A stretch of 64,000 nucleotides of DNA. It comes from Nitrospira sp. (GTDB taxonomy: Bacteria; Nitrospirota; Nitrospiria; Nitrospirales; Nitrospiraceae). The first letter of the stretch is position 1, and the number at the start of each line of letters is the position of its first letter. Where the stretch lies: assembly GCA_030653545.1 (NCBI GenBank), contig JAURZE010000013.1, forward strand, positions 124,001-188,000, written 5' to 3'. Of the stretch, positions 36,622 through 64,000 are shown piece by piece. Made by a program: the position numbers and the translations under genes. The notes beneath the pieces are model-generated. The model saw only the letters and a program-made list of their open reading frames with translations. It ran no database searches and had not been told where the DNA came from.

Positions 36622-36650
36622 ACCTTACACAGCGCGTTTTTGACTGTCAA
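36622..36650 (-). promoter_or_regulatory. promoter of the SmbP-like gene
   Basis: On the minus strand a perfect TTGACA (36645-36650), 17-bp spacer, and TAAGGT (36622-36627) at 63-91 bp upstream of the ATG. The -35 overlaps the stop codon of the upstream sulfurtransferase gene. The same TAAGGT -10 sequence recurs in the pup upstream region. Confidence 0.6.
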
Positions 36651-37525
36651 GAAGGCCGCGCCGACTCGTTGAACCCCAGAATTTTCTGTAGCCCTTGTAT
36701 GTCTTTTTCAACCGGACAGGCGAAATCCCGGCTCCACTCCCACCAGGATCCCGGATAGTTGCGGACATTCTGATAGCCCACGAGCTTCAGAATGAAATAG
36801 AGCCAGGCCGATCGGACACCGCCGGTGCAATAGCAGATGATCTCCTGCGAATCCTGTATCCCCTTGTCCTGCAGGGAATCCTTGATGGCGACGAAATCCT
36901 TGATCGTCGCGTCCTTGTTGAGAAACGTGTTCCACGCGACATGGATGGCCGAAGGGATATGCCCGGGACGCGGAATCCCCGACACTTCCTTGCCGAGATA
37001 CTCCTCCAGGCTGCGCGCATCCAGGACAGCCGTCTGCGGATGCGCCTGACGGACGATGAGCTTTAACTCATCCTTGGTCATCGCAACACTCTTCACCGGC
37101 TTGGCTTTGAACGTGCCCGGCTTCGGCGTTTCACGGCCATGACCGAAGGGGCGCTTCTCCGCCGTCCACTTGACCCAGCCGCCGTCGAGCACCTTCAAGT
37201 TCTGATGGCCGAGATATTCCAGCATCCAGAACATGCGCCCTTCATCGCCCCAATTGTCGAAGGGATTGGAGTAGATGACCACTTCGCTGTCGTTGCTGAT
37301 CCCCAATGCCGAGAGCTGCCGCTCGACCTGCGCGAGATCGGGATTCAGGAGCCCTTTCGGAATCGCATTCGGATCGCTGTATTCGTGCCAGGTCGAATGC
37401 ACGGCGCCGGGAATGTGGCCGCCGAACTCATAGGCCGACTTTCCCCGGACATCGACAATCACCAATCCCGGCTGCCCGAGACGCTGTTGCAAGGTTTCCG
37501 TATCCATCAATAAAGGGTGTGTCAT
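36647..37525 (-). CDS. thiosulfate/3-mercaptopyruvate sulfurtransferase (tandem rhodanese)
   Basis: 292 residues with two rhodanese domains: the inactive N-terminal one (about 5-125, VIVDVRGKSAYEFGGHIPGAVH) and the catalytic one (about 150-285). Cys233 lies in the active loop CTGGVRS, and AVLDARSLEEYLG and GHIPSAIH are typical. No signal peptide at the chosen ATG 37525, so cytoplasmic. A frame extension to 37573 overlaps the cytochrome gene. It lies 23 bp behind the pentahaem cytochrome gene, so cotranscribed. Confidence 0.93.
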   Translation of the reverse strand: MTHPLLMDTETLQQRLGQPGLVIVDVRGKSAYEFGGHIPGAVHSTWHEYSDPNAIPKGLLNPDLAQVERQLSALGISNDSEVVIYSNPFDNWGDEGRMFWMLEYLGHQNLKVLDGGWVKWTAEKRPFGHGRETPKPGTFKAKPVKSVAMTKDELKLIVRQAHPQTAVLDARSLEEYLGKEVSGIPRPGHIPSAIHVAWNTFLNKDATIKDFVAIKDSLQDKGIQDSQEIICYCTGGVRSAWLYFILKLVGYQNVRNYPGSWWEWSRDFACPVEKDIQGLQKILGFNESARPS

Positions 37526-37548
37526 GTGGTTCCTTTGTTCGTACAGGA

Positions 37549-38838
37549 TCAGCTTGCAGCCTTCACCTTGCAACTCGTTTCTTCCACTGGACGACTCAAT
37601 GCGGTCTGCTGACGATTCTCCCGATCCAAGGCTGCTGCCAGTTTCTCAGAAAGAGGAAACTCCCGTTCGTAAATCACGAACCGATAGGGATCGTTCCCCG
37701 TCAGTCCATACTTGGTCCGGAGCATCTCATGCTGCCCGTCCGTCAGAATGTGGTACTGCACCCGCGCCTTGAGAATCAAGCCCTCTGATTTAGGGGGGAT
37801 ACGATAGGCAAAACTGTACTCCCGGCTCGCCAGAGGCAGGAGCCGGTTGTCGTACAGTTCGAGAATGGCCGGCTGCCAGAGAATCCAGCGCCCTATGGTC
37901 GATTTCTGTTGGTCCAACACGTTCTTCTGCGCGTCCTCGACGGAAAACTCGATAGTAAAGTGCCGGTCGGGATCGCCGGTCGGGATCTTGTGGCCCGCGC
38001 CGGCATTGATCAGGTTCAGCGTAACGGCGATTTCGTCCCCTGGTTTGGGTTGCGGGGTGTCCGTCTTGACCTCGATCGCCACCGCCCGTTGAATCATGTC
38101 CGGATCATGCCCGCCTCGCCACAGATGTCGGCGGCCATGGCGAATGGGGCTATCCGGCGCCACCGGGCGAGTCACCTCGGGCATGTGGCAACTCTGGCAA
38201 ATGAAGCCCCGTTCCTGCATGAAGAACTTGCCTTCGTACTCGGCATAGGTCCCGCAAGGGCCTACATTGTAAAACTGGGCGGGACCTGAGACGACATTGT
38301 GACAGCGCTGACAGACCTGCGTAGTTCTGAAGTTCGGATCGAACTTCGTGGGATGCGGCGCGGCAGAATCTTCGAAGGGACCATAGATCACCCCGTCGCG
38401 CACATGGCAGGCGGCGCAGGTGACCGACTCCTTTTGATAGGCGGGATCATAGTGCGGGTTCGGCTCCTGCACCGCCTTTTCCACACGACCGCGCGGGATA
38501 TCCTTCACCAAGGTCGGCTGCTGATTTTCCAGCGGCGTGTGGCAGTTCAGACAAACCCAGATGTTCTTGTCTTTCTTCCAGTAAGCCTGAAAAAATGGAT
38601 CTTCATACGCCTTGGCATGGATGCTGGTCTTCCACTCGTCATAAATCTCGCGATGGCACGATCCGCACGATTCGGCGCTTAGACTCGTCAAACCCTCGGG
38701 CACTTTCTGAAACGGAATCGCATGCGCATACTCATCGCGCAAACCGAATATCACGACGGGCTTGATCTCGGTGTAGTAGACGTAGATCGCAGCGGCCAGA
38801 CCGACGACGCCCAACCCGATTTTCACCAGCCGCGTCAT
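37549..38838 (-). CDS. membrane-anchored pentahaem c-type cytochrome
   Basis: 429 residues with one N-terminal membrane segment (KIGLGVVGLAAAIYVYY, uncleaved-looking). Five CXXCH haem sites start at Cys58, Cys96, Cys141, Cys176 and Cys214. The last three motifs are CAACH, CQRCH and CQSCHMPE. The C-terminal half (about 255-380) is a beta-rich domain without haems (KPGDEIAVTLNLINAGAGHKIPTGDPDRHFTIEF). This layout is shared with the two cytochromes at 52587 and 53855. ATG 38838 overlaps the HDAC stop by 4 bp. Electron carrier or cytochrome c554-like enzyme; the partner is unknown. Confidence 0.9.
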   Translation of the reverse strand: MTRLVKIGLGVVGLAAAIYVYYTEIKPVVIFGLRDEYAHAIPFQKVPEGLTSLSAESCGSCHREIYDEWKTSIHAKAYEDPFFQAYWKKDKNIWVCLNCHTPLENQQPTLVKDIPRGRVEKAVQEPNPHYDPAYQKESVTCAACHVRDGVIYGPFEDSAAPHPTKFDPNFRTTQVCQRCHNVVSGPAQFYNVGPCGTYAEYEGKFFMQERGFICQSCHMPEVTRPVAPDSPIRHGRRHLWRGGHDPDMIQRAVAIEVKTDTPQPKPGDEIAVTLNLINAGAGHKIPTGDPDRHFTIEFSVEDAQKNVLDQQKSTIGRWILWQPAILELYDNRLLPLASREYSFAYRIPPKSEGLILKARVQYHILTDGQHEMLRTKYGLTGNDPYRFVIYEREFPLSEKLAAALDRENRQQTALSRPVEETSCKVKAAS

Positions 38839-39779
38839 GATGCCAACAACCCGCACACGTGGGCGTCCACCGAGGCCGCCAGAGCCGTGAGATTGTATCC
38901 CCCTTCGAGAGACGAAAGAATGCGCCCCTGCGCGTACGTCCTGGCAATACCGGCCACGATGCCGGTCAACTCCGCATAACCCGCCTCGGTCAATCCCATA
39001 CTGGCAAGCGGATCGTCTTTATGCGCATCGAATCCGGCTGAGATGATCACCAGCTCAGGCTTGAACCGTTCCGCCGCCGGCACCAGCACCTTGTGGAAGA
39101 CGGCGCGATATTCGTCGTCCCCCTCTCCCGCTTCCATCGGCACGTTGATCGTGTAGCCTTCCCCTGCGCCCCGGCCTCGCTCCGATTCGCGACCCGTACC
39201 GGGGTAGTGCGGAAATTGATGGGTGCTGAAAAACAGGACCGAGGGATCGTCTTCAAAACTGTGTTGCGTGCCATTGCCGTGATGCACGTCCCAATCGACG
39301 ATCAGCACTCGGGAGAGGCCATGCTTCTTCTGGACATAGCGCGCGGCAATGGCCACATTGTTCAACAGACAAAACCCCATCGCGCGATTGGCTTCGGCAT
39401 GGTGTCCCGGAGGCCGCACCGCGCAAAAGACATGCTCAACCTGCTTCGCCATCATCGCATCGACCGCGGCCAGCGCGCCTCCGGCCGCCAGATAGGCGGC
39501 GGTCAGCGAACCAGGAGACATGGACGTATCGGGATCGAGCGGCACGCGCCCGTTCGTAGGGGCGTGCTGCTTCAGCGACGCAAGGTAGGCTGCCGTGTGT
39601 ACTTTCGTGATCCATTCATCCTCGGCCATCCGCGGCTCGATCCTGGTCAATTGCGCCATCGTGCCGCTCTGTTCCAGCTGCTGCATGATCGCGCGCAGCC
39701 GGTTCGGCGACTCGGGATGGCCCATCCCCATGTCGTGTTCGAGATAGGCCGGATGATAGACAAGACCCGTCTTACCCAC
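38835..39779 (-). CDS. histone deacetylase family protein (class II/AcuC-like)
   Basis: 314 residues of the arginase/deacetylase fold. His126-His127 in RPPGHHAE and zinc ligands Asp164 and His166 in DWDVHHGNGTQ are visible, as is Asp251 in SAGFDAHKDDPL. The family deacetylates acetyl-lysine, acetylpolyamines or similar small amides; the substrate here is not evident. It overlaps the pentahaem cytochrome gene by 4 bp, an unusual neighbour. Confidence 0.92.
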   Translation of the reverse strand: MGKTGLVYHPAYLEHDMGMGHPESPNRLRAIMQQLEQSGTMAQLTRIEPRMAEDEWITKVHTAAYLASLKQHAPTNGRVPLDPDTSMSPGSLTAAYLAAGGALAAVDAMMAKQVEHVFCAVRPPGHHAEANRAMGFCLLNNVAIAARYVQKKHGLSRVLIVDWDVHHGNGTQHSFEDDPSVLFFSTHQFPHYPGTGRESERGRGAGEGYTINVPMEAGEGDDEYRAVFHKVLVPAAERFKPELVIISAGFDAHKDDPLASMGLTEAGYAELTGIVAGIARTYAQGRILSSLEGGYNLTALAASVDAHVCGLLAS

Positions 39780-52586: not shown

Positions 52587-53846
52587 CTACTTATTGACGG
52601 GAATGTTCTCGGTGCGTTTCACGATGTCGATCGCCTGAAAGACCGGATCTTGCGATCCCTTGGAGGCTTCGGCTTCGACACGCTGGAGGAACGGCGCAGG
52701 GCCACTGATCGGCGCATAGTTCAAGGTCACGTCAACGTCGAACGTCTTCGTATCTTTCGGCGTGGGGAAGGTAAAGGTTTCGACCCGCGTTTCGTCGGGC
52801 TTTAACACCGTGTCTTCGAGCACTTTCACCGCCTCAAAATCAAAGACGGTCTTTTGGCCCTTGGCATCGGCATAGGTCCGGCCATAGACCCGCCTATCGG
52901 CAAAGACCGTTTTCAGATTCTTGCCTTTGATATCGAGATCCAACACCACCGACGCCCAGGCCGGATGGGTTGTGGGCAGGTTATGCGGTACGAGGCTTTG
53001 CACTTTCACAATGACGGTGGTCTTATCCCCGTCGATCTTGGTCTGCACATCCAGCTTCGCCGCTTCCTGCCGCAGCTTGCCGATGCGCCCGGGGAACGTA
53101 TGGTTGGCGACTTTGCGTTTCTTCTCTCCGTTGGCCGATTCTCCGACCTGCTCCGGCATATGGCAGCTCTGACACTCTTTGCCGGACTTCACGGCCTGAC
53201 TCTGCTCATAGCTCCCCAGCAAATCATTGGCCTTGCCCAGATTCGCCGCCGAGGGGACGGACTGGTGGCAGTTCAGGCAGAGATCGGACTTTTGAAACAG
53301 ACCCAGTTCCATCGATTGATGCGCGAGATTCTGGACAAAATCTTTGTAGGGGCCATAGAGCGTCTTGCTGCCCAGTTCGTATTTCGGTTCCGGCGGTTGC
53401 TTGGCCCGATCGACCTGCTTAATCAAATGGCATTGTGCGCAGGCCACGCCATCCAATGAAGGATCTCCCGCCTTGGCCTGATCCACGAAGAGCTGAGCTT
53501 GATCAGGAAACTCACGCACATGGGGCGCATGACAGCGGAAGCACATCGCCTTATCTTTACCTGCGGAGGAATTCAGATACGCATCCAGCGAAGCACGGAA
53601 GGCCGGCGAATGGATCGACTTGGAGAGCGGAGAGGTTTCCCACTCTTCGAACACACGCTCATGACATCGCTTGCACTTACTGGAGTTGGGAAAGGCCTTT
53701 TCGATTACCGCCTGTGACTTGGCATCCTGCGCATATAAGCCGGGCTCCCCGCCGCTCCAGATAACCAACGCGCCGATAAGCACCGCGAGACCCACGACTC
53801 CCTGCTTGATGCGCTTGTATAAACCCACGCCACAATCCTTCTTCAA
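52587..53846 (-). CDS. periplasmic pentahaem c-type cytochrome (second of a tandem pair)
   Basis: 419 residues with a signal peptide/anchor (VVGLAVLIGALVIWSGG). Five CXXCH sites start at Cys58, Cys102, Cys136, Cys190 and Cys225. The C-terminal half (about 255-400) is a haem-free beta-rich domain (TKIDGDKTTVIVKVQSLVPHNLPTTHPAWASVVLDL). It is paralogous to the neighbouring cytochrome at 53855 and to 37549. Last gene of the operon; the start is 8 bp from the upstream cytochrome stop. A role as electron acceptor/relay is inferred. Confidence 0.92.
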   Translation of the reverse strand: MKKDCGVGLYKRIKQGVVGLAVLIGALVIWSGGEPGLYAQDAKSQAVIEKAFPNSSKCKRCHERVFEEWETSPLSKSIHSPAFRASLDAYLNSSAGKDKAMCFRCHAPHVREFPDQAQLFVDQAKAGDPSLDGVACAQCHLIKQVDRAKQPPEPKYELGSKTLYGPYKDFVQNLAHQSMELGLFQKSDLCLNCHQSVPSAANLGKANDLLGSYEQSQAVKSGKECQSCHMPEQVGESANGEKKRKVANHTFPGRIGKLRQEAAKLDVQTKIDGDKTTVIVKVQSLVPHNLPTTHPAWASVVLDLDIKGKNLKTVFADRRVYGRTYADAKGQKTVFDFEAVKVLEDTVLKPDETRVETFTFPTPKDTKTFDVDVTLNYAPISGPAPFLQRVEAEASKGSQDPVFQAIDIVKRTENIPVNK

Positions 53847-53854
53847 TGGCTACC

Positions 53855-55150
53855 CTACAATGTTTTCACGCGATAGGTGAGGAGACGCGGCTGCTGGTAC
53901 TCATCGAGCACATGCTTCGCCTCGTCCCGTTCCTTATCGGTTTTTAACGTCGCGAGATACTTTTCCCGCAACGCCGGTTCCGGCGTCGGAATCAATGCAT
54001 AGCTCAATACGGCTTCAACCGAGGCCGGGAGCGAACCTGCAGGTATCGAATAGGCAAACGGTACTTTTCTCGTATTGCCGCCTTTAATAAAGGGATCGGG
54101 AATCGGGCCGCGCAGGATCTTGTCGTAGGGCAAGCCGAACCGCTTCGTCTCTTCCGCTAAGACCTTGCCCGCCGCGTCCTTGACGGTCATCGTGAGGATC
54201 ACCTGCTTGAGCACCGGATCCCCGTCGGGGAAGCTGTGGGGGAGACTCCCCACCTTAACCAGCGTCGTCCCCTCCACCGTGCCGCTCGACTTCGCCATCT
54301 CGATATCAACACGCGGCATCCACTCGGCCTGGAGATTCCGGTTCTTTAACAACGTGCCGGGAATGACGACGCCCCGAAACCAGTGCCGGCCGATGGCCCG
54401 CGTCATCGATCCGCGCTTGGATGTCGAACTGCCGGTCGAAGGCTCCATGTGGCAGTCCTGGCAGATCGTTCCCTGGAGAATTTCACCGGGCAGCTCCCGC
54501 TTCGTGACATCTTTCACTTTATCGAAATGGCAGGAGGTACAGTAATTGGCCCCTCGGAACAGATCCGACTGCGCCCCGATGTGTACGAGGTTTTCTTCAG
54601 GATTCGCGAAGGGGCCATAGAGGGTTTTGCCCGGTGTCAGCTTGAAGGTCGGCGGCGGACCGGGCGTCGTGTCGACGGAACCGATCATATGGCAGGTCGC
54701 ACAGCCGATCCCCTCGACCTGCGGCTTTCCGGCTAAGACCTGCGCGACAATCTTTTCTGCATGCTGGGGGAACACTGTCGTGGATGGCACGTGACAGGAG
54801 AGACAGCGCTGCCGTTCATCGGAAGTCGGATTCGTCTGCATCCACACGCCCAACACCGTTCGAAAAACCGGCGACTCCAGCGACGTCCCATGCAAGAGCG
54901 CGGCATCGACGCGTCCGAAGGTTTTTAGATCCGGGGTTTGCTCCCGCATGCCTTTCCACTCTTCATAGTGGCGGTCATGACATTGCTTACAATCTTCAGA
55001 GCGGATAAACACATTCTCGATCTCGGCCACCCAGTCGGGCGGCGCCGCTCCATCCGATTTTTGCGCGATAGCCCGCTCGTGCGAGAGCGCATTCAGCCCG
55101 ATAGCGAGCAGAAGGAAACATCCAATAGCCAGGCGTCGTGTCAACGGCAT
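53855..55150 (-). CDS. periplasmic pentahaem c-type cytochrome (first of a tandem pair)
   Basis: 431 residues with a cleavable signal (MPLTRRLAIGCFLLLAIGLNALSHERAIAQ). Five CXXCH sites start at Cys54, Cys116, Cys150, Cys204 and Cys230. The C-terminal half (about 270-400) is haem-free and beta-rich (TLVKVGSLPHSFPDGDPVLKQVILTMTVKDAAGK). Haem spacing and the LYGP(F/Y) segment after the third site are shared with the 52587 protein, so the pair arose by tandem duplication. It starts 9 bp after the PDZ gene. Confidence 0.92.
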   Translation of the reverse strand: MPLTRRLAIGCFLLLAIGLNALSHERAIAQKSDGAAPPDWVAEIENVFIRSEDCKQCHDRHYEEWKGMREQTPDLKTFGRVDAALLHGTSLESPVFRTVLGVWMQTNPTSDERQRCLSCHVPSTTVFPQHAEKIVAQVLAGKPQVEGIGCATCHMIGSVDTTPGPPPTFKLTPGKTLYGPFANPEENLVHIGAQSDLFRGANYCTSCHFDKVKDVTKRELPGEILQGTICQDCHMEPSTGSSTSKRGSMTRAIGRHWFRGVVIPGTLLKNRNLQAEWMPRVDIEMAKSSGTVEGTTLVKVGSLPHSFPDGDPVLKQVILTMTVKDAAGKVLAEETKRFGLPYDKILRGPIPDPFIKGGNTRKVPFAYSIPAGSLPASVEAVLSYALIPTPEPALREKYLATLKTDKERDEAKHVLDEYQQPRLLTYRVKTL

Positions 55151-55159
55151 CTGTGACCT

Positions 55160-55675
55160 TTAATCCCGTTTGCAGCCGACAAAATGAAAATTCACACCCC
55201 ATCCGACCGGATCGCCGGGATCGGCTGGTTCATAGGTCCCGAGGGTAAAATTGCATTCCTTCATCGCTTTTTTGATCGCGATCCCGAAATCCGTCATGTT
55301 GCGAATTTCCGTCTTGTCGATTTCCTTGATGACCGATCGCACTTTGATACCGGCATAGTCTGCGCGGGAGTTTCCGATCACCTCGAATACGGCGACGCCC
55401 TTCGCCTCCTGCAGCTTCAGCTCTTTCCGGATATCCTCGTCCACGGATCCGACCATCACACCGAATTCCTCACCCAACCTGACCGCCTCGTCCTCGGTCA
55501 TAGCCACGGCGTCAGCCGCTACCGCTATCGGGAGAGAGCCGCTCGCTCCCGTGAAGCCGACGAGACTGAGGGCCAGGGTGCAACTTCGACCGCACCGGAG
55601 CGCGATGTTCACGAATCGATGGCTTCGAATAGCGATCCTTTCACGGGTCATCGGCACAGGCGATCGACGATTCAT
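55160..55675 (-). CDS. exported PDZ-domain protein
   Basis: 171 residues with an N-terminal signal (CGRSCTLALSLVGFTGASGSLPIAVAA, about 28-54). The rest is one PDZ-like domain: EEFGVMVGSVDEDIRKELKLQEAKGVAVFEVIGNSRADYAGIKVRSVIKEIDKTEI. No protease domain. It could be an assembly or scaffold factor for the neighbouring cytochromes. ATG 55675 (MNRRSPV) follows the upstream gene by 13 bp; a frame extension to 55825 overlaps that gene. Confidence 0.8.
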   Translation of the reverse strand: MNRRSPVPMTRERIAIRSHRFVNIALRCGRSCTLALSLVGFTGASGSLPIAVAADAVAMTEDEAVRLGEEFGVMVGSVDEDIRKELKLQEAKGVAVFEVIGNSRADYAGIKVRSVIKEIDKTEIRNMTDFGIAIKKAMKECNFTLGTYEPADPGDPVGWGVNFHFVGCKRD

Positions 55676-55688
55676 TACACCAGGAAAT

Positions 55689-56513
55689 TTAGAGCTTGGC
55701 AATCGGATCAATGGCCAGCTGGAACCAGGGGGCGACGGACTTCTGTCCGTTGCGCTCTTTATTCTCCCCGTTCCACACGGCGAAAGAGACGGTCTGGACG
55801 CGGCCAGGAATGAGCTTCGCCTCATTCTCCGGCTCTTCGCTCACCAGCGGGCGGCGCATCACCACACGCCACACCCCGTCTTTCCATTGCGCCTTCCCTT
55901 GAATCCGTCCCTGCTTTTCCTTCGTGGTCAGCGTGCTGAATCCTCCGCCGATCAAGTCTTCCACAGACGAGACTCGCCGGGGAATGACTTCGAACGTGCG
56001 CACGCCGCCTTCCTTCTTTTCAGTTTGGCGAGAGGCGCGACGGTCGATATCACTCTGCCAGTCCGCTTTCCAATGCCAGATATTGATGTAGTGATCAAGC
56101 TGGCCCATGCAGAAGAATGCCGGCGCGTCGCCGAGCGGCAACCCGATGGCGACGCCGTCTCGAAAGGTGCCAGGGGTCAGGCGATCATTCTTGGTGTTAT
56201 CCTGCCACTCCAGAAGGAAGGCGATCTCGGTGCCGTTATGGAGAGAGCGTACGACGAGTGCCCGCGCTGTCGGCTCAGGCCAGACCGGGCGCGTAATGAC
56301 CTGTCCGCTGAGCGGCACCGTTAAGGAAGAGACTGTGGCCCATGCCGCATCGTCCGGAGCCGACGGCAGTTCACCCTCGGCGAAATGGGACCGGATAGTC
56401 ATGCCCGCTGAGCTGACCAGCGGAATTCCCCATCCGGCTAGAACACTAGCGATAACAAGAAGGCCGGCAAAAAACACCAGCAGAAAAGGACGGGACTGGC
56501 TGAGATTCGTCAT
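55689..56513 (-). CDS. ethylbenzene-dehydrogenase-type haem b subunit (NxrC-like)
   Basis: 274 residues with an N-terminal hydrophobic segment (LLVFFAGLLVIASVLAGWG). The fold is the beta-sandwich haem b domain of DMSO-reductase-family gamma subunits. Candidate axial ligands are Met136 (FFCMGQLDHYINIWHWK) and Lys258 (NGQKSVAPWF), 122 residues apart, as in EbdC. It is shorter than the paralogue at 62320, lacking a 44-residue segment between the ligands. No catalytic molybdenum or Fe-S subunit gene is adjacent. ATG 56513; the frame extends upstream to 56600 without a signal-like start. Confidence 0.88.
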   Translation of the reverse strand: MTNLSQSRPFLLVFFAGLLVIASVLAGWGIPLVSSAGMTIRSHFAEGELPSAPDDAAWATVSSLTVPLSGQVITRPVWPEPTARALVVRSLHNGTEIAFLLEWQDNTKNDRLTPGTFRDGVAIGLPLGDAPAFFCMGQLDHYINIWHWKADWQSDIDRRASRQTEKKEGGVRTFEVIPRRVSSVEDLIGGGFSTLTTKEKQGRIQGKAQWKDGVWRVVMRRPLVSEEPENEAKLIPGRVQTVSFAVWNGENKERNGQKSVAPWFQLAIDPIAKL

Positions 56514-56616
56514 TCGCACCATGCAGATGATTCGAAATTCGACGGTCGCCGTCTGGATCACTGCAGAATACCATAGCGCCAGCCAAGAGACCTGGCTCAC
56601 GCTCAGAAACGGGGCC

Positions 56617-57870
56617 CTAGGACAGTTTCACCCGGCGAATTTTGTTCTCGCCGCGCTCGCAAATATAGAGATGCCCCTGTGAGTCGAGCGTCAACCCGAC
56701 CGGTGAGTTCACCACGGCTTCGATGCCCAACAGTCCATCGCCGTGCTTGACCGTGCCGGCCGATTCTTTGGCGACAAACCGCGCGGCGCCGCACCCGCCC
56801 ATGTTCTTGTCTTCATACCCGCTGTCGCCGTTGCCCGCCACGGTGGTGATCATGCCGGTCACCGCATCGATCCTCCGCACGCGATGATTCATGGTATCGG
56901 CAACATAGAGATTGTCTTCGGCATCGAACACAACGCCCTCGGGCGCATGCAACATCGACTTCACGGCCGGCTTGTCGTCGCCATCGTAGCCGTAGCGACA
57001 GATCCCCGCCACCGTCGAAATAATACCGGTCTGCATGTCGATCTTCCTGACACGATTGCTGCCCTTATCCACGACGACGATGTTGCCCTTGCTATCGATG
57101 GCCATTCCCACGAGATCGTAGAGGCGGGCTTCCATTGCAGGCTTCCCGTCATCCAGATACATCGACAAATCCAGACCGTCCGAGCAGACCGGCATCAACC
57201 AACCCTGGTCATCGCTGAAGTCGATGCCGATGGCATCCCCGGAAAGCACCACAAGACTGCGCGCCACCAACGGCTGCTCCCGCGATTCGTCTTCCGCCGT
57301 CCAGGCACCGGCAACCGTGGTCACCATCCCGGTACGGGGGTCATACCGCCGCACCTTGTGCGCCTGCGTATCGGCAATGTACATGACATCGTCCCGATCG
57401 AACGCAATCGCGGCAGGCCAGGTCAGATTCACTTCGAGCGCCGGGCCATCGCCATTGAACCCATGCTGGCCGGTCCCGACAACCGTCGTGATGATACCGG
57501 TTTCCCGATCGACCCGGCGAATGCGGTTGCTGCCGGAATCGCAGATGAAGAGGTTGTTCTGTGAGTCGAATGCGACATCCAGCGGCAGATACAGACCGGC
57601 TTCTCCGCAAAGCCCCTCATCGCCGCTATAGCAGGTTTCCCCGATCCCGGCAAAATTGTGGAGCGTGCCTTCGAGGATGTTGACCCGCCGGATACGGTCC
57701 GAACCGGACTCGGCAAAGTAGAGCCACTTCTCTTCCTTGTCGAGCGCGACATGGTGAGGGAGCGGAATCCCCGCCTTCACCGCCCGCTTCCCGTCACCGG
57801 TACTCCGGGCTTTCCCGTTTCCCGCAAAGGTCTCGATGTAGCCGCCGGCTAACTGCAGTTCTGTATCCAT
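56617..57870 (-). CDS. NHL-repeat beta-propeller protein
   Basis: 417 residues made of about six NHL repeats, each with the pattern GxxFDSQNNLFICDSGSNRIRRVD followed by GIITTVVGTGQHGFNGD. No clear signal peptide (MDTELQLAGGYIETFAG). Its N-terminus is intact with family-like first repeat. NHL propellers bind proteins or RNA, or act as ring-opening enzymes; here the operon suggests a scaffold or binding protein. It lies 39 bp behind tatA and 103 bp before the NxrC-like gene. Confidence 0.88.
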   Translation of the reverse strand: MDTELQLAGGYIETFAGNGKARSTGDGKRAVKAGIPLPHHVALDKEEKWLYFAESGSDRIRRVNILEGTLHNFAGIGETCYSGDEGLCGEAGLYLPLDVAFDSQNNLFICDSGSNRIRRVDRETGIITTVVGTGQHGFNGDGPALEVNLTWPAAIAFDRDDVMYIADTQAHKVRRYDPRTGMVTTVAGAWTAEDESREQPLVARSLVVLSGDAIGIDFSDDQGWLMPVCSDGLDLSMYLDDGKPAMEARLYDLVGMAIDSKGNIVVVDKGSNRVRKIDMQTGIISTVAGICRYGYDGDDKPAVKSMLHAPEGVVFDAEDNLYVADTMNHRVRRIDAVTGMITTVAGNGDSGYEDKNMGGCGAARFVAKESAGTVKHGDGLLGIEAVVNSPVGLTLDSQGHLYICERGENKIRRVKLS

Positions 57871-57909: not shown

Positions 57910-58191
57910 TTACGCGCGCGAGGCCGGTTGCGCGACAGCAGCCGGTTGATCGACGGTCATCGATTGAACCGGAGCGGCGGTAATGGCCGGAGCCGCGGCC
58001 GCGGCTTGCTGCTGCGCGGCGAGCGCCTGGGCCTCGGCCTCGATGGCGTCGGCCTCATGCACGGACTTCTTGAAGCCCTTGATGGCTTTGCCCAATCCTT
58101 CGCCCAGCTGCGGCAGTTTACCGGCGCCGAAAATGATCAACACGATCACGAGGATCAGAATCAGCTCTGTGAATCCAAGACTCCCAAACAT
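57910..58191 (-). CDS. tatA: twin-arginine translocase protein TatA/E
   Basis: 93 residues: [44 protein letters not shown] is the TatA membrane helix plus amphipathic helix with FGxxKLPxLG. The C-terminal tail is Ala/Gln-rich. TatA forms the pore for export of folded, cofactor-loaded proteins. No tatBC nearby. A frame extension to 58251 overlaps the TPR gene and is not used. Its place in a redox operon suggests dedicated export of a Tat substrate such as the nitrite oxidoreductase alpha subunit (inference). Confidence 0.93.
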
Positions 58192-58216
58192 GATGGACTC
58201 CTTCCTAAGGGGTAAA

Positions 58217-59029
58217 TCAGGATGCGGAACTCTCTTTGGCTTTCTTGGCAAACCGTTCTTTTAATCGCTTCCGAGCTTCTTCAGCCTGCTCGAACATTTT
58301 GCACTTGTCGTACACACTGATGAGATTGTAGTACGCCAGGGGCTCGTCGGGATTGTTCTCGACGGCGCTCTCCATCACCTTGATCGCCAGATCGGACTTC
58401 TTGTGATTCAGTGCGATCTCCATCAATTTGAAGCTGGCTTCCAGATGCGTGGGCTCAAGTTCGAGCGTGCGCATATAGCACTGAATGCCCATATCGATCG
58501 TGTTGTAGTCGGACACCAGCGGGTTATCCAGCTCCACATACACGCTGGCGAGATTGTACCAGGCGATGGGATCTTCCGGCGTCATCTCGACAAGGCGCTC
58601 GTAGTAATCCTTGGCTTCCATGAATTTCTTCTTGTCCGCATAGACCCGGCCCAGATTAAACAGCGCCAGGATGTCATGCGGGAACACATCGAGCGCATGC
58701 TTGAATTCGGCCTCGGCTTCGTCGGCCATGTTCTTCGTGGCGTAGATGGTCCCGAGGTTCGAATAATACATGGCCAGCGACCGATTCATCTCGGCGCGCA
58801 AGCCCTCCGCCATCTCAATCGATTTCTTGACCTCGATCAAGGCGTCGTCCATCCGGCCTTTACTGAAGTACAATTCGCCCAACCGGCAGCGGGCCTGAAA
58901 ATCGTCTGGCTCCTCCGCCAGCAGCTTCTCGATCGCCAGGATTTCCTCGTCGGGCGAGAGCGGCTGATCTCCGGGATCCAGCGCGGTCGCCGTCTGCGTG
59001 GGTTCATTGCTTGGGTTCGTTGTGTCCAT
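58217..59029 (-). CDS. tetratricopeptide repeat protein
   Basis: 270 residues with about five TPR units ([83 protein letters not shown]). The N-terminal about 30 residues are Thr/Pro/Asp-rich and disordered. No signal peptide, so cytoplasmic. It sits 25 bp upstream of tatA and 27 bp behind a membrane protein gene; it may help assemble the exported complex. Confidence 0.88.
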
Positions 59030-59056: not shown

Positions 59057-60175
59057 TTATACCTGTTCGGTTACCAGGGCATCCGAAGAGCCCATGAGTG
59101 TATTCGCGGCCGTCGACGGAGACTCCGAGGCCACCGGTCTGACCCGATCCATCGCGAGCAGCATCACTCCCAGAATCACCATCAGCGTGAGATTGGAAAA
59201 AAGTAACGCATACCCCGCGATAAACATCAGTCCAATCCCATACCCCGCCAGCCGCCCCATATTGAGCAGCTTGATGACGGTATAGGACCAACAGAGCAGC
59301 CCCCCCATATAAATGGCGAACGGCAGATAGAAGGTATAGCCCATGCCGAACTGGAAAATCCACCCGATCCCCTGGGAAGCTTGCCGAACCCCGGACGCCA
59401 AGCCTGGGTCATACAAACCGAGCAGATAATCGGTAAAAATGAGGGTCGTGAAGATCGTCCCGGTCGTCGCCCAGAACCAGATCGCCCGATTGCGCTGCAC
59501 GCGGTTCTTCGTCCTGAGCGACAGCCCCTGGCCGTAGGCCACAAAAGTCAGAAAACTCGCCAGTACCATCAAGGCTTCGCCGATTCGATGGGCCTCATAG
59601 ACAAATGGCGGCGCCGCGACGGTGTTGGCCACACTGTAGGCGGTCGACAGAATTTGGTAATAGAGCCATCCGGAAATACCGAAAAAAAATGTGACTCCCA
59701 GCACCTGGTGCGACCGTTGCGGTTGCGTGGAGACATACTCGAACATGAACAACGCCAAAGCCAGAAAGGCGATGACGTTATAGATCAATGACCCGACCAT
59801 CCCGGAAGGTACCACCAAAAAGGCCGCGGTGAGGAGCAGTAGCAACACCACACAGCTCATCGCTACCTTGGTCATCCGGTTCACCTCCTGGCCGGCGCTG
59901 CGATTGACCATCGTCACACCCAGCGCGAGGAACAAGAGAATCGCCACGATGTTGAGGAGCCAGGTGCCGATCTCTGTGAGGGTGCTGAAGGTCGGGGTGA
60001 TCCACGGATGCGCCACAGCCATCTTGCTCAGATGCATCCCCAATCTCGAGACCAGGCGATAGAGCACCAACTCAAGAAATGAGGTCAGCAGAACGAGCTT
60101 GATCGTATACTCGAACATCGGACCGTAATCGCTGATCCGGCCTGAAATCCGATCACTCATCGTTACGCTCTTCAT
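59057..60175 (-). CDS. polytopic membrane protein of unknown function
   Basis: 372 residues from the ATG at 60175 (a start at 60220 adds 15). About ten transmembrane helices, e.g. IKLVLLTSFLELVLYRLV, WLLNIVAILLFLALGV, VGSLIYNVIAFLALALFMF, GISGWLYYQILS, LMVLASFLTFVAYG. I see no known transporter or cytochrome b motif, although there are several His (HPWITP, QRSHQV, EAHRIGEALMV). The location in the operon suggests a membrane partner of the exported redox proteins (inference). Confidence 0.75.
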   Translation of the reverse strand: MKSVTMSDRISGRISDYGPMFEYTIKLVLLTSFLELVLYRLVSRLGMHLSKMAVAHPWITPTFSTLTEIGTWLLNIVAILLFLALGVTMVNRSAGQEVNRMTKVAMSCVVLLLLLTAAFLVVPSGMVGSLIYNVIAFLALALFMFEYVSTQPQRSHQVLGVTFFFGISGWLYYQILSTAYSVANTVAAPPFVYEAHRIGEALMVLASFLTFVAYGQGLSLRTKNRVQRNRAIWFWATTGTIFTTLIFTDYLLGLYDPGLASGVRQASQGIGWIFQFGMGYTFYLPFAIYMGGLLCWSYTVIKLLNMGRLAGYGIGLMFIAGYALLFSNLTLMVILGVMLLAMDRVRPVASESPSTAANTLMGSSDALVTEQV

Positions 60176-60265
60176 ACCCTCGTACACTCCCGCCAGCAAG
60201 GACCTGATTATAGCTGTCACAAAAAAACAGGGTCAATGCCGAGTCGCAGCCACCGTCCGAGGAAG

Positions 60266-62050
60266 CTAGGACGCGCTGATCGGCTGCGGCGCCTGGACAG
60301 CCTGCGCCTTTTCATGCGCAATGTAGAGCAATCCGTCCGCCATCGAATAATTGAAGGGCAATTCGCAAACCACTTCACTGACCCGTTCATAAACATGCTG
60401 ATAGAGCTTTTCCGACTCGTCCGGCGTCATCCCCTCCTGCACCTCATAAAAGAACCCCAGACTCAGATCCTCTGCAGAGGGCCGCATGATTCTGCGTATC
60501 CCATATCCTCCAGGATCGCTCATGATCGGGGCTTCCTTCTCAAGGTCGAACAGGCAGGGCTGGCAGGAGAACCCGAACGACTCGTGCAACTTTTTGTTCT
60601 CCACGATGAAGTTCATGGTTTCCAGCGCTTCTTCTTCCTTCTCCGTAGGAAATCCGACGATGATGTAACAGTGCACCGCGATCCCAAGATCCACACAGTC
60701 GTCGGCGATCCTCCGGACCCACTCCTGCTTGATACCCTTCTTCATGAAATCCATGATGCGCTGATTGAAGGACTCCAATCCGAACACAATCTTGAGACAG
60801 CCGGCGTCACGCATGGACGTCAGAAGTTCACGTGAAAGATTCTTTTCGAACCGCATTTCGCAGGTCCATTTGATATCCAGCTTCTGCTCGGTCATCTGCT
60901 GACAGAGCCGCTTGGTGGGCGCGAGGGCAAAACACTCGTCGGTAAAAAAGAAGTTCTGCGCCCCGTACCGCTCCTTGAGCCATTTCAGCTCTTCGATCGT
61001 CCGGCCCGGCTCCTTCTGCCTGAAATTCTGGTGATCGAGCGTGAGGGCGCAGAAGGCGCAATCTTTGTAGTAGCACCCGCGCGAGAATTGGACCGGCAAC
61101 ACCGGTTCAGGAGAGAGATACTTATCCAGCGGAAACCCGTCGTAGTTCGGCGCAGGCAACTGGTTCACATTCTCTGAATAGAACGGCTGATTGACCGTAA
61201 TCTTCCCGTTTTGGCGATAGATCAGATTCGGCACCTTGCTGAAATCTTTCTTCCCGGCCATCTGATTGACCAACTCCAGCAACGCCGTCTCTCCTTCAAA
61301 CACGACGATGTCATCGGTAATATCAAACAAACTCGGACAGCGGCGGATATTATCGACCAGGCGGGTGAATATACTGCCTCCGATCGTAATATGCAGATCG
61401 GGAGCCGCTTCTTTGATCAATCGGCACAGCGTCAGTCCGGGAATAATCTGCGACGTGGCCGTGATCGACACCCCGATAAGATCCGGGCGATCGTTCACAA
61501 TCGATGGAATAAATTTATCGCGGAACAGGCTGATGTAGGGATTCTGCACTTCATCTCGAATGACCTTCATGAGGTCTTTCGAGGAATAGATCGAATAGTT
61601 GCTGAACTGATTATCGACGACCGTCAATCTTGTCGGGAAATACACCGACGACACCAACTCCAGCCATTTATCGATCATGAAGAGACTGCCGCGATAGGCA
61701 TCGAGATCGTAAAACGCCTCGCTACGCAGCGTCTCTTTTGCCAGCTCTACCCGATCGATCAAATAGGGGAACCGATCAAGCGACTCCGCAATTTTGGCCG
61801 CGTGCTCACGGCTTCCCGGACCAGTCTCTCCAGACGTACTCTTTTCCAGCTCCCGCTGCTTTGCGAGCAACTGTTCATGAACCTCAGCCCCAAATGAGCG
61901 GGTCAGAAGTTGGTCGAGCAACTCGATTCCAAGATCCCGCTGAGAGACGTCTTTGACGCCACCCTGGTGCAGGAATCCGGTGAGAGAGGGGAGACTGAGA
62001 TACGGTTGAGAGGGATGCCAGGTAGGCGGAAACAACAACGATACTTTCAT
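60266..62050 (-). CDS. B12-binding-type radical SAM protein
   Basis: 594 residues. The N-terminal region (about 10-290) contains a B12-binding-like Rossmann segment (IVNDRPDLIGVSITATSQIIPGLTLCRLIKE, then ITIGGSIFTRL). The radical SAM cluster motif is CYYKDCAFC, that is C-X4-C-X2-C, about residue 331. A Cys-rich SPASM-like end was not seen; GCLKIVFGLESFNQRIMDFM and VHCYIIVGFPTEKEEEALETM follow. The substrate is unknown. ATG 62050 (MKVSLLFPP) fits the family start better than a GTG three codons upstream. Confidence 0.85.
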   Translation of the reverse strand: MKVSLLFPPTWHPSQPYLSLPSLTGFLHQGGVKDVSQRDLGIELLDQLLTRSFGAEVHEQLLAKQRELEKSTSGETGPGSREHAAKIAESLDRFPYLIDRVELAKETLRSEAFYDLDAYRGSLFMIDKWLELVSSVYFPTRLTVVDNQFSNYSIYSSKDLMKVIRDEVQNPYISLFRDKFIPSIVNDRPDLIGVSITATSQIIPGLTLCRLIKEAAPDLHITIGGSIFTRLVDNIRRCPSLFDITDDIVVFEGETALLELVNQMAGKKDFSKVPNLIYRQNGKITVNQPFYSENVNQLPAPNYDGFPLDKYLSPEPVLPVQFSRGCYYKDCAFCALTLDHQNFRQKEPGRTIEELKWLKERYGAQNFFFTDECFALAPTKRLCQQMTEQKLDIKWTCEMRFEKNLSRELLTSMRDAGCLKIVFGLESFNQRIMDFMKKGIKQEWVRRIADDCVDLGIAVHCYIIVGFPTEKEEEALETMNFIVENKKLHESFGFSCQPCLFDLEKEAPIMSDPGGYGIRRIMRPSAEDLSLGFFYEVQEGMTPDESEKLYQHVYERVSEVVCELPFNYSMADGLLYIAHEKAQAVQAPQPISAS

Positions 62051-62202
62051 GGAAACCACTTTCTAATATCTTCGGAAAATCAGATAGTTTCGAATGATTT
62101 CACTGATCGTTTATACACTCCCGCCTTCTTCATTTGCAACCCTGCTGCATCGCACGTTGAGAGAACGCATAGCCTCTCCCCCAGCTATGCCATCACCATG
62201 CC

Positions 62203-62319: not shown

Positions 62320-63273
62320 TCACGGAAGCTTGAGCGTGAACCAGGTGGAGAGCGCCTTCATACCGTTGCGCTCAATGTTGTTCCCATCCCACACTGCAAA
62401 CGCGATGGGCACAGACATTCCCGCCTTGAACTGCGTATCGTTCGCATCGCTGGTCTCCAGGCTGCGCTTGATGACCACGCGCCAGGTCGGACCAGTGTAA
62501 CCGCCACCCTTGACGGAGCCTGACGGCTCCCACACACCGTTCCCGAACACGTCCTGATGGGATTGGGTGGTGAGGGTGCTGAATCCGTTGGCATTCAGGT
62601 CTTCAACCGAGCTCACACGGAGCGTCGGATCGGACATGATGTTACCGGACCAGATACCTGAGTTGAATGGCCCAAGGCTCCGACCGATCCGATCAGGATA
62701 GGTCACGCCACCGGCCGGCTCTTCGAAATAGTAGTCCCAGAAAATGCCTGGGTACTGATCGTCCACGTCCCACATGCCCGCGCTGTCCTTACCAAGGTCT
62801 TTCTGCCATTCCGCGTTCCACCGCCAGATGTTGGTGGTTCCGCCGGATTGACCCATACACTGGAAAGGTGGCGCACCGGACGTGGTCACCGGGAACATGA
62901 TCGCAGCCTGGTCGCGGAAGTCCTGCGGACCAATCGCTGTGTCATTCTTCGTCTGATCGCTCCACTCCACGCGCAGGCCGAGCTCCTTACCGTTGCTCAT
63001 CGCCTTCACGAACATCGACTTCACCGAGATGTTCGGGTGCATCGGGGTGGTGATCAGCTGACCGCTCAACGGAACGATTACACCAGGAACGCTTTCCCAC
63101 ACGGGGTTGGCGCCATCCATGGGAATCGGTCCCTTGACTGCCTTCGCCGGAATCGTGACCGGCTGGCTTACGGCCAAGGGCACTTGCCCGATCGTCAGCA
63201 TGACGCCGACGACGAGGGCAGAGAGCAGAATGCTAAACACCAATTTCTTGTTGGTCGTCTGCACAACTCTCAT
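62320..63273 (-). CDS. nitrite oxidoreductase gamma-type haem b protein (NxrC-like)
   Basis: 317 residues with a cleavable signal (MRVVQTTNKKLVFSILLSALVVGVMLTIGQ... ending AVS). The domain is the ethylbenzene-dehydrogenase-type haem b fold. Candidate axial ligands are Met140 (FQCMGQSGGTTNIWRW) and Lys306 (NGMKALSTWF). About 44 residues more lie between them than in EbdC or the 55689 protein, including DDQYPGIFWDYYFEEPAGG. In Nitrospira such proteins are the proposed NxrC. GGAGG 10 nt upstream supports ATG 63273. It follows the TorD-like gene. Confidence 0.88.
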   Translation of the reverse strand: MRVVQTTNKKLVFSILLSALVVGVMLTIGQVPLAVSQPVTIPAKAVKGPIPMDGANPVWESVPGVIVPLSGQLITTPMHPNISVKSMFVKAMSNGKELGLRVEWSDQTKNDTAIGPQDFRDQAAIMFPVTTSGAPPFQCMGQSGGTTNIWRWNAEWQKDLGKDSAGMWDVDDQYPGIFWDYYFEEPAGGVTYPDRIGRSLGPFNSGIWSGNIMSDPTLRVSSVEDLNANGFSTLTTQSHQDVFGNGVWEPSGSVKGGGYTGPTWRVVIKRSLETSDANDTQFKAGMSVPIAFAVWDGNNIERNGMKALSTWFTLKLP

Positions 63274-63323
63274 ACAGCTAATCCCTCCTCTCAAATTAAT
63301 GATTAAATAACATCGCCCAAAAA

Positions 63324-63372: not shown

Positions 63373-64000
63373 CTACGCGGTTCCGACTGGTCCGCCCTCC
63401 TCCTTGTCCTTATCCTTGTCCTTCACATCCAGGAAGGACTGCGCGCCGACTTCATTCAACAACACGCTCAACTCATTCCCCTGGTCCTGCGCTCCGCACT
63501 CGTACGTCTGACCTTCAGGCGAATTAAAGGTCGCCGGACGATAATCTGTTTCTGTGTAAGGCTGCGGGGTGACTCCGAGGAACGCGGTTTCGAACTCAAT
63601 CCAATCAGAGGTCATATCCGCGACGATCTTGAACAGACCGGAATCGGACTTTTTCGTCAACATCCGGCAAAACAGAGGAACCCATCGCCCGATGTGATTT
63701 TTAACAAACTTTTTCTGCGCATCCACAACGATCTGCGTCTTGTCGGCACCGTCATGGCAGCGGGAATACGATTCTTTGTAGGCCAAGAAGTGCATGAACT
63801 CGAACTCGACGCTGAGGTGGTCGAGCCGCTCATGAATATCCTTCGACAACTCGACGCCAAACGCCTTATAGAAGCCGGCGATGTCGCCCATGGTATGGGA
63901 CTGCGCAAACACGTGATCGTTGCCGAAGAGGGTTTCGTACGGCGGACAATCCAGCGTGATCACATTGCTGAACACACGCCGATGCTCCGACTGCAGATCG
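63373..64000 (-). CDS. TorD-like molybdoenzyme maturation chaperone (5' end cut by window edge)
   Basis: About 209 residues are visible and the frame is open to the right edge; the N-terminus is off the window. The TorD/NarJ-like helical fold is suggested by LDHLSVEFEFMHFLAYKE (family motif ...D H L ... E F x F M x x L) and RWVPLFCRMLTKKSDSGLFKIVADMTSDWIEFE. The C-terminus is acidic/Lys-rich (KDKDKDKEEG). Such proteins bind the molybdenum subunit and its Tat signal until cofactor insertion. NxrA or a relative probably lies to the right (inference). Confidence 0.8.
   Translation of the reverse strand, partial: DLQSEHRRVFSNVITLDCPPYETLFGNDHVFAQSHTMGDIAGFYKAFGVELSKDIHERLDHLSVEFEFMHFLAYKESYSRCHDGADKTQIVVDAQKKFVKNHIGRWVPLFCRMLTKKSDSGLFKIVADMTSDWIEFETAFLGVTPQPYTETDYRPATFNSPEGQTYECGAQDQGNELSVLLNEVGAQSFLDVKDKDKDKEEGGPVGTA

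Follow-up and report, generated by a model that had tools for sequence, protein, structure and literature searches.

The window, which here means the whole stretch of 64,000 nucleotides of Nitrospira sp. that was analyzed, contains three genes encoding pentahaem cytochromes, named A, B and C in this work. A and B are neighbors, with B located upstream of A and a spacing of 8 nt between them, and C is found elsewhere in the window:

37549..38856, minus strand: C, third pentahaem cytochrome, of a separate lineage (435 amino acids, GTG start)
52587..53846, minus strand: A, pentahaem cytochrome of the c552/ExtKL type (419 amino acids, TTG start)
53855..55150, minus strand: B, pentahaem cytochrome, sister clade of A (431 amino acids, ATG start)

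The initial annotation described A and B as tandem duplicates which share five haem sites, a LYGP segment and a haem-free, beta-rich C-terminal half, with a related protein at 37549, and all these features were recovered. The frames of A, B and C are intact, and each of the three genes encodes five CXXCH motifs, a count which did not exceed one in any of the 2000 codon shuffles performed per gene. The haem histidines of these motifs are residues 62, 106, 140, 194 and 229 in A, and 58, 120, 154, 208 and 234 in B. The LYGP segment is exact in A and B and reads IYGP in C. The N-terminus of A is a hydrophobic helix, and the C-terminal half of the proteins shows no CXXCH. AlphaFold2 models are composed mainly of beta strands from about residue 263 (A) or 280 (B) onward, with one helix near residues 384-393 in the tail of A and two at 392-418 in that of B. 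Mean pLDDT and pTM were 56.6 and 0.38 for A and 66.9 and 0.70 for B, the haem half being poorly predicted and the tail mostly better. PDB matches restricted to the tail half of both models are beta-sandwich domains, many of them from glycoside hydrolases and transglutaminases.

Homology among A, B and C extends across most of their length, with BLASTP scores of 156 bits between A and B, 70.5 between A and C, and 60.5 between B and C. Comparison of tail-only profiles gave a probability of 95.5 (score 56.1) for A-B, 93.8 (50.4) for B-C and 5.8 (23.6) for A-C, and the highest score among the controls, 20 column-shuffled profiles per pair, was 19.1. The expectation that the three tails can be aligned with each other is thus upheld for A-B and B-C, while A-C is only marginal when compared directly; tail homology between these two would rest on the chain through B and on a common loop, H-x-x-P-x-(G/T)-X-P, which is present in all three tails (HSFPDGDP in B and HKIPTGDP in C).

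A and B belong to the pentahaem PHC family, which includes cytochrome c552 of Thermochromatium tepidum and ExtKL/MccSep, and a beta-sandwich tail is normal in this family. Both show five N-terminal CXXCH motifs followed by an Ig-like/beta-sandwich tail, and both are related along the whole length to c552 (PDB: 5ZE8). C, also a member of the family, shows the five motifs and a tail alignable to that of B, and its relation to 5ZE8 is by sequence only (E 1.8e-10). 5ZE8 was the top PDB match of a profile led by A (built from C and from 35 A and 16 B rows; E 6.4e-20, split over two stretches) and of a B-led profile (E 1.1e-16), as well as the top Foldseek match of both models (E 4.7e-12 and TM 0.40 for A, E 2.8e-9 and TM 0.38 for B). 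It was also first in VIA, with Z 12.5 and rmsd 7.6 over 293 residues for A, and Z 11.0 and rmsd 5.6 over 271 residues for B, although the latter Z is tied with tail-only rows (10.8), so the whole-length relation of B is carried by Foldseek and the profile. Cytochrome c552 resembles A and B in its five haems and its beta-sandwich tail, but shares only 18-24% identity with them and has Ala at loop position X. In the A-led search, two PDB matches extend into the tail, namely 5ZE8 and MccSep, a multihaem selenoprotein. MccSep (ExtKL/MccSep, PDB: 9WT8-9WTC) was matched with E 1.7e-16 at profile positions 27-364, tail included, and carries Sec325 where A and B have His or Asp; 9WT8 and 9WT9 were not among the 50 matches listed by Foldseek or VIA, which has no bearing on the fold. 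According to a 2025 paper, ExtKL, Gsu2801 and proteins of cable bacteria form one pentahaem family with an immunoglobulin-like domain, for which structural homology to c552 was noted (PMC11976967).

The ExtKL model NF040886 was the best NCBIfam match, with 109.5 bits for A, 55.7 for B and 64.5 for C. All three are below its equivalog cut-off of 250 bits, which makes ExtKL a relative only, and no protein of the window's own genome exceeds this cut-off. A further difference from ExtKL/MccSep is that no porin was found among the cluster genes scanned. Pfam gave short cytochrome matches within the haem half. The cytochrome c554 domain (PF13435) was over the cut-off in A (38.7 bits) and B (32.1 bits), restricted to an N-terminal stretch, and scored 19.4 bits in C, below the cut-off of 20.8. 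The initial view that the tail is unlike cytochrome c554 is therefore correct, since this domain covers the N-terminal stretch only; however, the proteins are not c554-like cytochromes with an odd tail, since the tail is typical of the existing 5ZE8/ExtKL family. Unlike c554 (PDB: 1FT5), A and B have five haems, about 420 amino acids and the extra tail. In the PDB profile search, c554 was found with E 0.0053 over a short stretch and the NrfA-type nitrite reductases with E 2.3e-5 and weaker, also over short stretches. The CycA type was rejected: with the Nitrosomonas c554 model NF043010, whose cut-off is 400 bits, A scored 14.7 bits, and B and C were not listed at E <= 0.1.

Among 146 Nitrospirales genomes, A was found in 135 (E <= 1e-100), B in 138 (E <= 1e-30) and C in 130 (E <= 1e-20). 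In a sample of 295 genomes of the phylum, 16 genomes outside Nitrospirales showed a match at E <= 1e-25, the best being 8.9e-50. Phylogenetic trees of 56 and 65 rows, for which 14 of 109 A rows, 14 of 107 B rows and 11 of 29 C rows were chosen, group A and B each in one clade and as mutual sisters (support 100/98 and 99/94), which agrees with their description as tandem duplicates. Several long outgroup branches were flagged by the program, and in the tree including selenocysteine proteins the join around A+B was supported by 50/2 only. Inside both the A and the B clade, rows of family f2 are split from those of f3 and f1, with the f3 and f1 grouping in B supported by only 81/79, in the first tree. 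Since this split is repeated in both clades, the A/B duplication predates the separation of the three Nitrospirales families that carry them. C forms a separate clade in both trees, grouped with paralogues of other Nitrospirota. The phylogeny including the protein at 37549 thus retains A and B as sisters and places C in a lineage of its own.

The neighborhood of C also differs from that of A and B. Two genes flank it:

36647..37573, minus strand: sulfurtransferase of the 3-mercaptopyruvate sulfurtransferase/rhodanese type, below cut-offs, with a 25 nt overlap with C
38835..39779, minus strand: histone-deacetylase-like protein, the other flank of C

The trio of histone-deacetylase-like protein, C and sulfurtransferase was found in the 24 closest C loci, all of them from f1, and in both f4 genomes inspected. 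The sulfurtransferase is similar to 3-mercaptopyruvate sulfurtransferase and weakly so to ExtH, with both matches below the cut-off. A rhodanese-like gene is also reported close to the gene of ExtKL; that C functions with sulfur or selenium would be a guess. In other families C can lie elsewhere in the genome, as in G007. C is therefore a different, sulfurtransferase-linked cytochrome outside the A/B module. The initial annotation had suggested an expansion with distinct partners, which can be read as the local multiplication of a c554-like protein into A, B and C. Their homology and their presence within one window agree with it, but C branches deeply apart from A+B, is flanked by conserved neighbors of its own, can lie elsewhere in other families and is present in genomes without A and B, so that we regard a local expansion as very improbable.

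Upstream of B, on the same strand, the window continues with the following genes up to its end:

55160..55825, minus strand: PDZ-like protein, weak family match; the true start is probably internal (149 amino acids in N. moscoviensis)
55689..56600, minus strand: EB_dh/DMSO-reductase type II haem-b subunit, orthologue of nxrC_1 (NITMOv2_3617, 30.8 kDa)
56617..57870, minus strand: NHL-repeat protein
57910..58251, minus strand: TatA
58217..59029, minus strand: TPR protein
59057..60220, minus strand: probable membrane protein, with long hydrophobic stretches seen by eye and an empty family search
60266..62059, minus strand: B12-binding radical SAM protein
62320..63294, minus strand: EB_dh/DMSO-reductase type II haem-b subunit, orthologue of nxrC_2 (NITMOv2_3624, 34.2 kDa)
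63373..64000, minus strand: NarJ/TorD-type chaperone, C-terminal part of a gene which continues past the window; its orthologue L052:539-1570 hits PF02613

Read along the strand, the order is chaperone, NxrC_2-type subunit, B12-radical SAM protein, probable membrane protein, TPR protein, TatA, NHL-repeat protein, NxrC_1-type subunit, PDZ-like protein, B and A. Nine of ten regions, which come from three families, keep this order over the part that each of them covers, and the tenth, a second copy in G043, contains B-A alone. The nine regions holding the NxrC cluster all show the B12-radical SAM gene of 60266-62059; seven of them list TatA (frames below 90 amino acids were left unread), with 92-98% identity across a 48-residue core in five of the seven, and in L057 the TPR gene is split. 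The second B-A pair of G043 (L058:7620-10324) lies off the NxrC cluster; close to this pair are CydAB, a photolyase and a fusion of a multicopper oxidase with cytochrome c. Furthermore, a pair test on 80 named loci (Nitrospira, Nitrospiraceae, Nitrospirae or Nitrospirota records, plus one Phycisphaerales MAG), leaving out TatA, recognized a cluster gene in 78. Where both members were found, adjacent pairs were on the same strand and close in every case: B-A in 72/72, PDZ-B in 72/72, NxrC_1-PDZ in 71/71 and NxrC_2-radical SAM in 48/48.

These genes are the same as those of cluster NITMOv2_3614-3631 of N. moscoviensis, as gene order and NxrC masses agree: masses in the N. moscoviensis record match those published for NITMOv2_3624 and 3617 to 0.1 kDa (3617 from an internal Met). 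In a 2025 comparison the published cluster, which contains NxrC, TorD and "two putative pentaheme cyt. c proteins", is described as expressed, as conserved among nitrite-oxidising Nitrospirales and as diagnostic of them; the available text of that account assigns the pentahaem pair to no family or fold and gives neither its duplication history nor its ligand residues (PMC12342949). Published expression is 354 for nxrC_1 and 20,365 for nxrC_2. The fixed order with NxrC, a NarJ/TorD-type chaperone and TatA, together with the absence from genomes without NXR, marks the group as an NXR accessory cluster, the absence being that of the four f4 genomes only.

The composition of the cluster also allows the reading that the pair serves NXR biogenesis, that is, that A and B feed electrons into maturation or repair in the periplasm and not into respiration. 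The chaperone, TatA, TPR, PDZ and radical SAM proteins, several of which resemble maturation or export factors, would fit it, as would the weak expression of the NxrC gene nearest to the pair. However, the most highly expressed NxrC sits in the same cluster, and multihaem electron carriers are generally unusual in maturation. We consider a role in biogenesis improbable.

A strong nxrA match (E <= 1e-100) was obtained in 116 of the 146 genomes, and A and/or B are present in 115 of these. The other one, G095 (99% complete), shows two nxrA matches and neither A nor B, as a gap or a true loss. The DMSO-reductase model TIGR03479 was rejected as a poor nxrA probe, with matches in 17/146 genomes and none over its cut-off. 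A or B without a strong nxrA were found in 25 genomes. Of these, 15 were searched again, and nxrA pieces appeared in eight, with none at E <= 1e-15 in the other seven. Several pieces begin with the very first base of their contig (G002, G027, G035 and G120), which is the pattern expected if an assembly is interrupted by near-identical nxr copies. G000 also shows an nxrA piece at a contig start (C31), and a 44-residue piece lies inside the single-contig assembly of G048 (G048:C1:2215575-2215706). Genomes with pieces only look like a collapse of repeated nxr copies, and "no nxrA" is unsafe in them; the co-occurrence of A/B and nxrA is thus weakened by assembly effects. The four f4 genomes contain no nxrA, A or B and all hold C, with 61-63% identity; from a published paper, f4 is presumably the NXR-less family UBA2166. 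G026 (71% complete) likewise holds C alone. In five f1/g2 genomes (G071, G024, G038, G121 and G067) A is located 12-13 kb from an nxrA, and in other genomes it is far from it, more than 1 Mb in G107.

On these data, we lean, with slightly better than even confidence, towards a function of A and B in periplasmic electron conduction for NXR, in which the two proteins would differ in how the tail loop tunes one haem. Both proteins would be exported, as suggested by the N-terminal hydrophobic helix and haem c, and may constitute a periplasmic multihaem wire of the nitrite oxidoreductase system. Electrons would be taken from, or given to, the haem-b subunit NxrC, and then passed between A and B and on to further cytochromes of the periplasm. 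The HxxPx(G/T)X loop of the beta-sandwich would face one haem of the N-terminal domain and set its ligand field or its access, through a residue X which varies between His in A, Asp in B and Sec in the selenoprotein relatives; with a different X, A and B would differ in the chemistry or the potential of one haem. The cluster order, the co-occurrence with nxrA, the distance of 12-13 kb in five genomes, the published cluster, the 5ZE8 fold and the fixed X count in favor of this function. Several points count against it. Cytochrome c552 is termed low-potential in a paper title, nitrite electrons are released at about +430 mV, and low-potential haems could not accept them downhill. The nearest NxrC gene, nxrC_1, is expressed far below nxrC_2, and G095, the 25 genomes with A or B and without a strong nxrA, and the G043 copy outside the cluster also weigh against it. 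Furthermore, the gene set common to Nitrospina, Kuenenia and Nitrospira, in the published listing available, includes a mono- and a dihaem cytochrome and no pentahaem one, so A and B are unlikely to be a universal NXR acceptor.

Position X is fixed within each clade. The rows compared are mostly f1, with few from f2 and f3, and the C rows come from f1 and f4 only. X is His in all 108 A rows covering it (one of the 109 is gapped), and Asp in 107/107 B rows and 29/29 C rows; the sixth place of the A loop is Thr in 103, Pro in three and Ser in two of the 108. In MccSep, X corresponds to residue 325, which is mutated in a PDB chain named U325A. An in-frame TGA is found at X in nine of 30 distant loci (L096, L097, L104, L113, L114, L115, L117, L118 and L119, from eight genomes of other Nitrospirota), and these nine pentahaem relatives outside Nitrospirales are probably selenoproteins. 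selB was over the cut-off in seven of the eight genomes, and the eighth (70% complete) has a piece of it at a contig edge. It was also found in three of 11 other genomes searched, including G001, a member of Nitrospirales whose A and B are without Sec, and no selB over the cut-off was found in G000. The frames of A, B and C contain no TGA, and thus no selenocysteine of the MccSep type. The invariance of the HxxP histidine and of X within the clades, and the Sec at X, suggest that one of these residues may touch a haem.

Histidines outside the CXXCH motifs are also clade-specific. Invariant ones are His176, 249, 288 and 294 in A, His61, 87, 190, 256 and 305 in B, and His80, 168, 244, 250, 289 and 369 in C. 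A histidine at W+5 is present in 29/29 C rows and its equivalent, His87 of B, in 106/106 covering rows, the two being matched by alignment after a 17-residue insert; in A this position is Leu, Met, Gln, Ile or Val. With five haems and only four invariant histidines outside CXXCH, and with no histidine at W+5, A leads to the alternative that A and/or B are enzymes, in which an open or weakly ligated haem and the loop residue (His in A, Asp in B) bind or reduce a small molecule such as NO, nitrite or an oxyanion of sulfur or selenium. Such a reaction would accompany nitrite oxidation as a safeguard or a side reaction. However, His79 (104/109 rows) or His109 (99/109) could serve as a ligand of the fifth haem in most A proteins. 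The Sec at X in MccSep and the nine Nitrospirota relatives would suit a catalytic role, as would the proposal of ExtKL for selenite reduction, the grouping of the cable-bacteria relatives as potentially catalytic cytochromes (PMC11976967) and the multicopper oxidase and CydAB next to the second copy of G043; against it, Sec is replaced in A and B by non-thiol residues, c552 has Ala at X, and A and B are without a known substrate. We therefore hold an enzymatic function to be unlikely.

Periplasmic electron conduction for NXR remains the reading we prefer, and the clade-fixed differences, which as read from the alignments concern candidate haem ligands or residues of a haem pocket, fit different roles for A and B. 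A broader proposal, which we offer as speculative and rather doubtful, is that the PHC tail loop would be an exchangeable haem-pocket element, with Sec in the selenoproteins, Asp in B and C and His in A, and that the A/B duplication in nitrite-oxidising Nitrospirales fixed one wire-type and one reactive NXR-dedicated cytochrome, the latter handling N-oxides or tuning potential.

The pair, the cluster and its link to nitrite oxidation are already in print (PMC12342949), and the present results agree with them. The family placement, the age of the duplication, the separation of C and the clade-fixed X residue look new, as no prior statement of these four points was found in the open-licence literature searched. 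The absence from A of a histidine that is conserved in B and C was likewise not found there. Nitrospira is a main nitrifier, and the route by which electrons leave its periplasmic nitrite oxidoreductase is an unsettled question. With A and B placed in a family with solved structures (5ZE8 and MccSep), C set apart from them, and the positions that are invariant but different named, this question gains concrete targets that can be tested.
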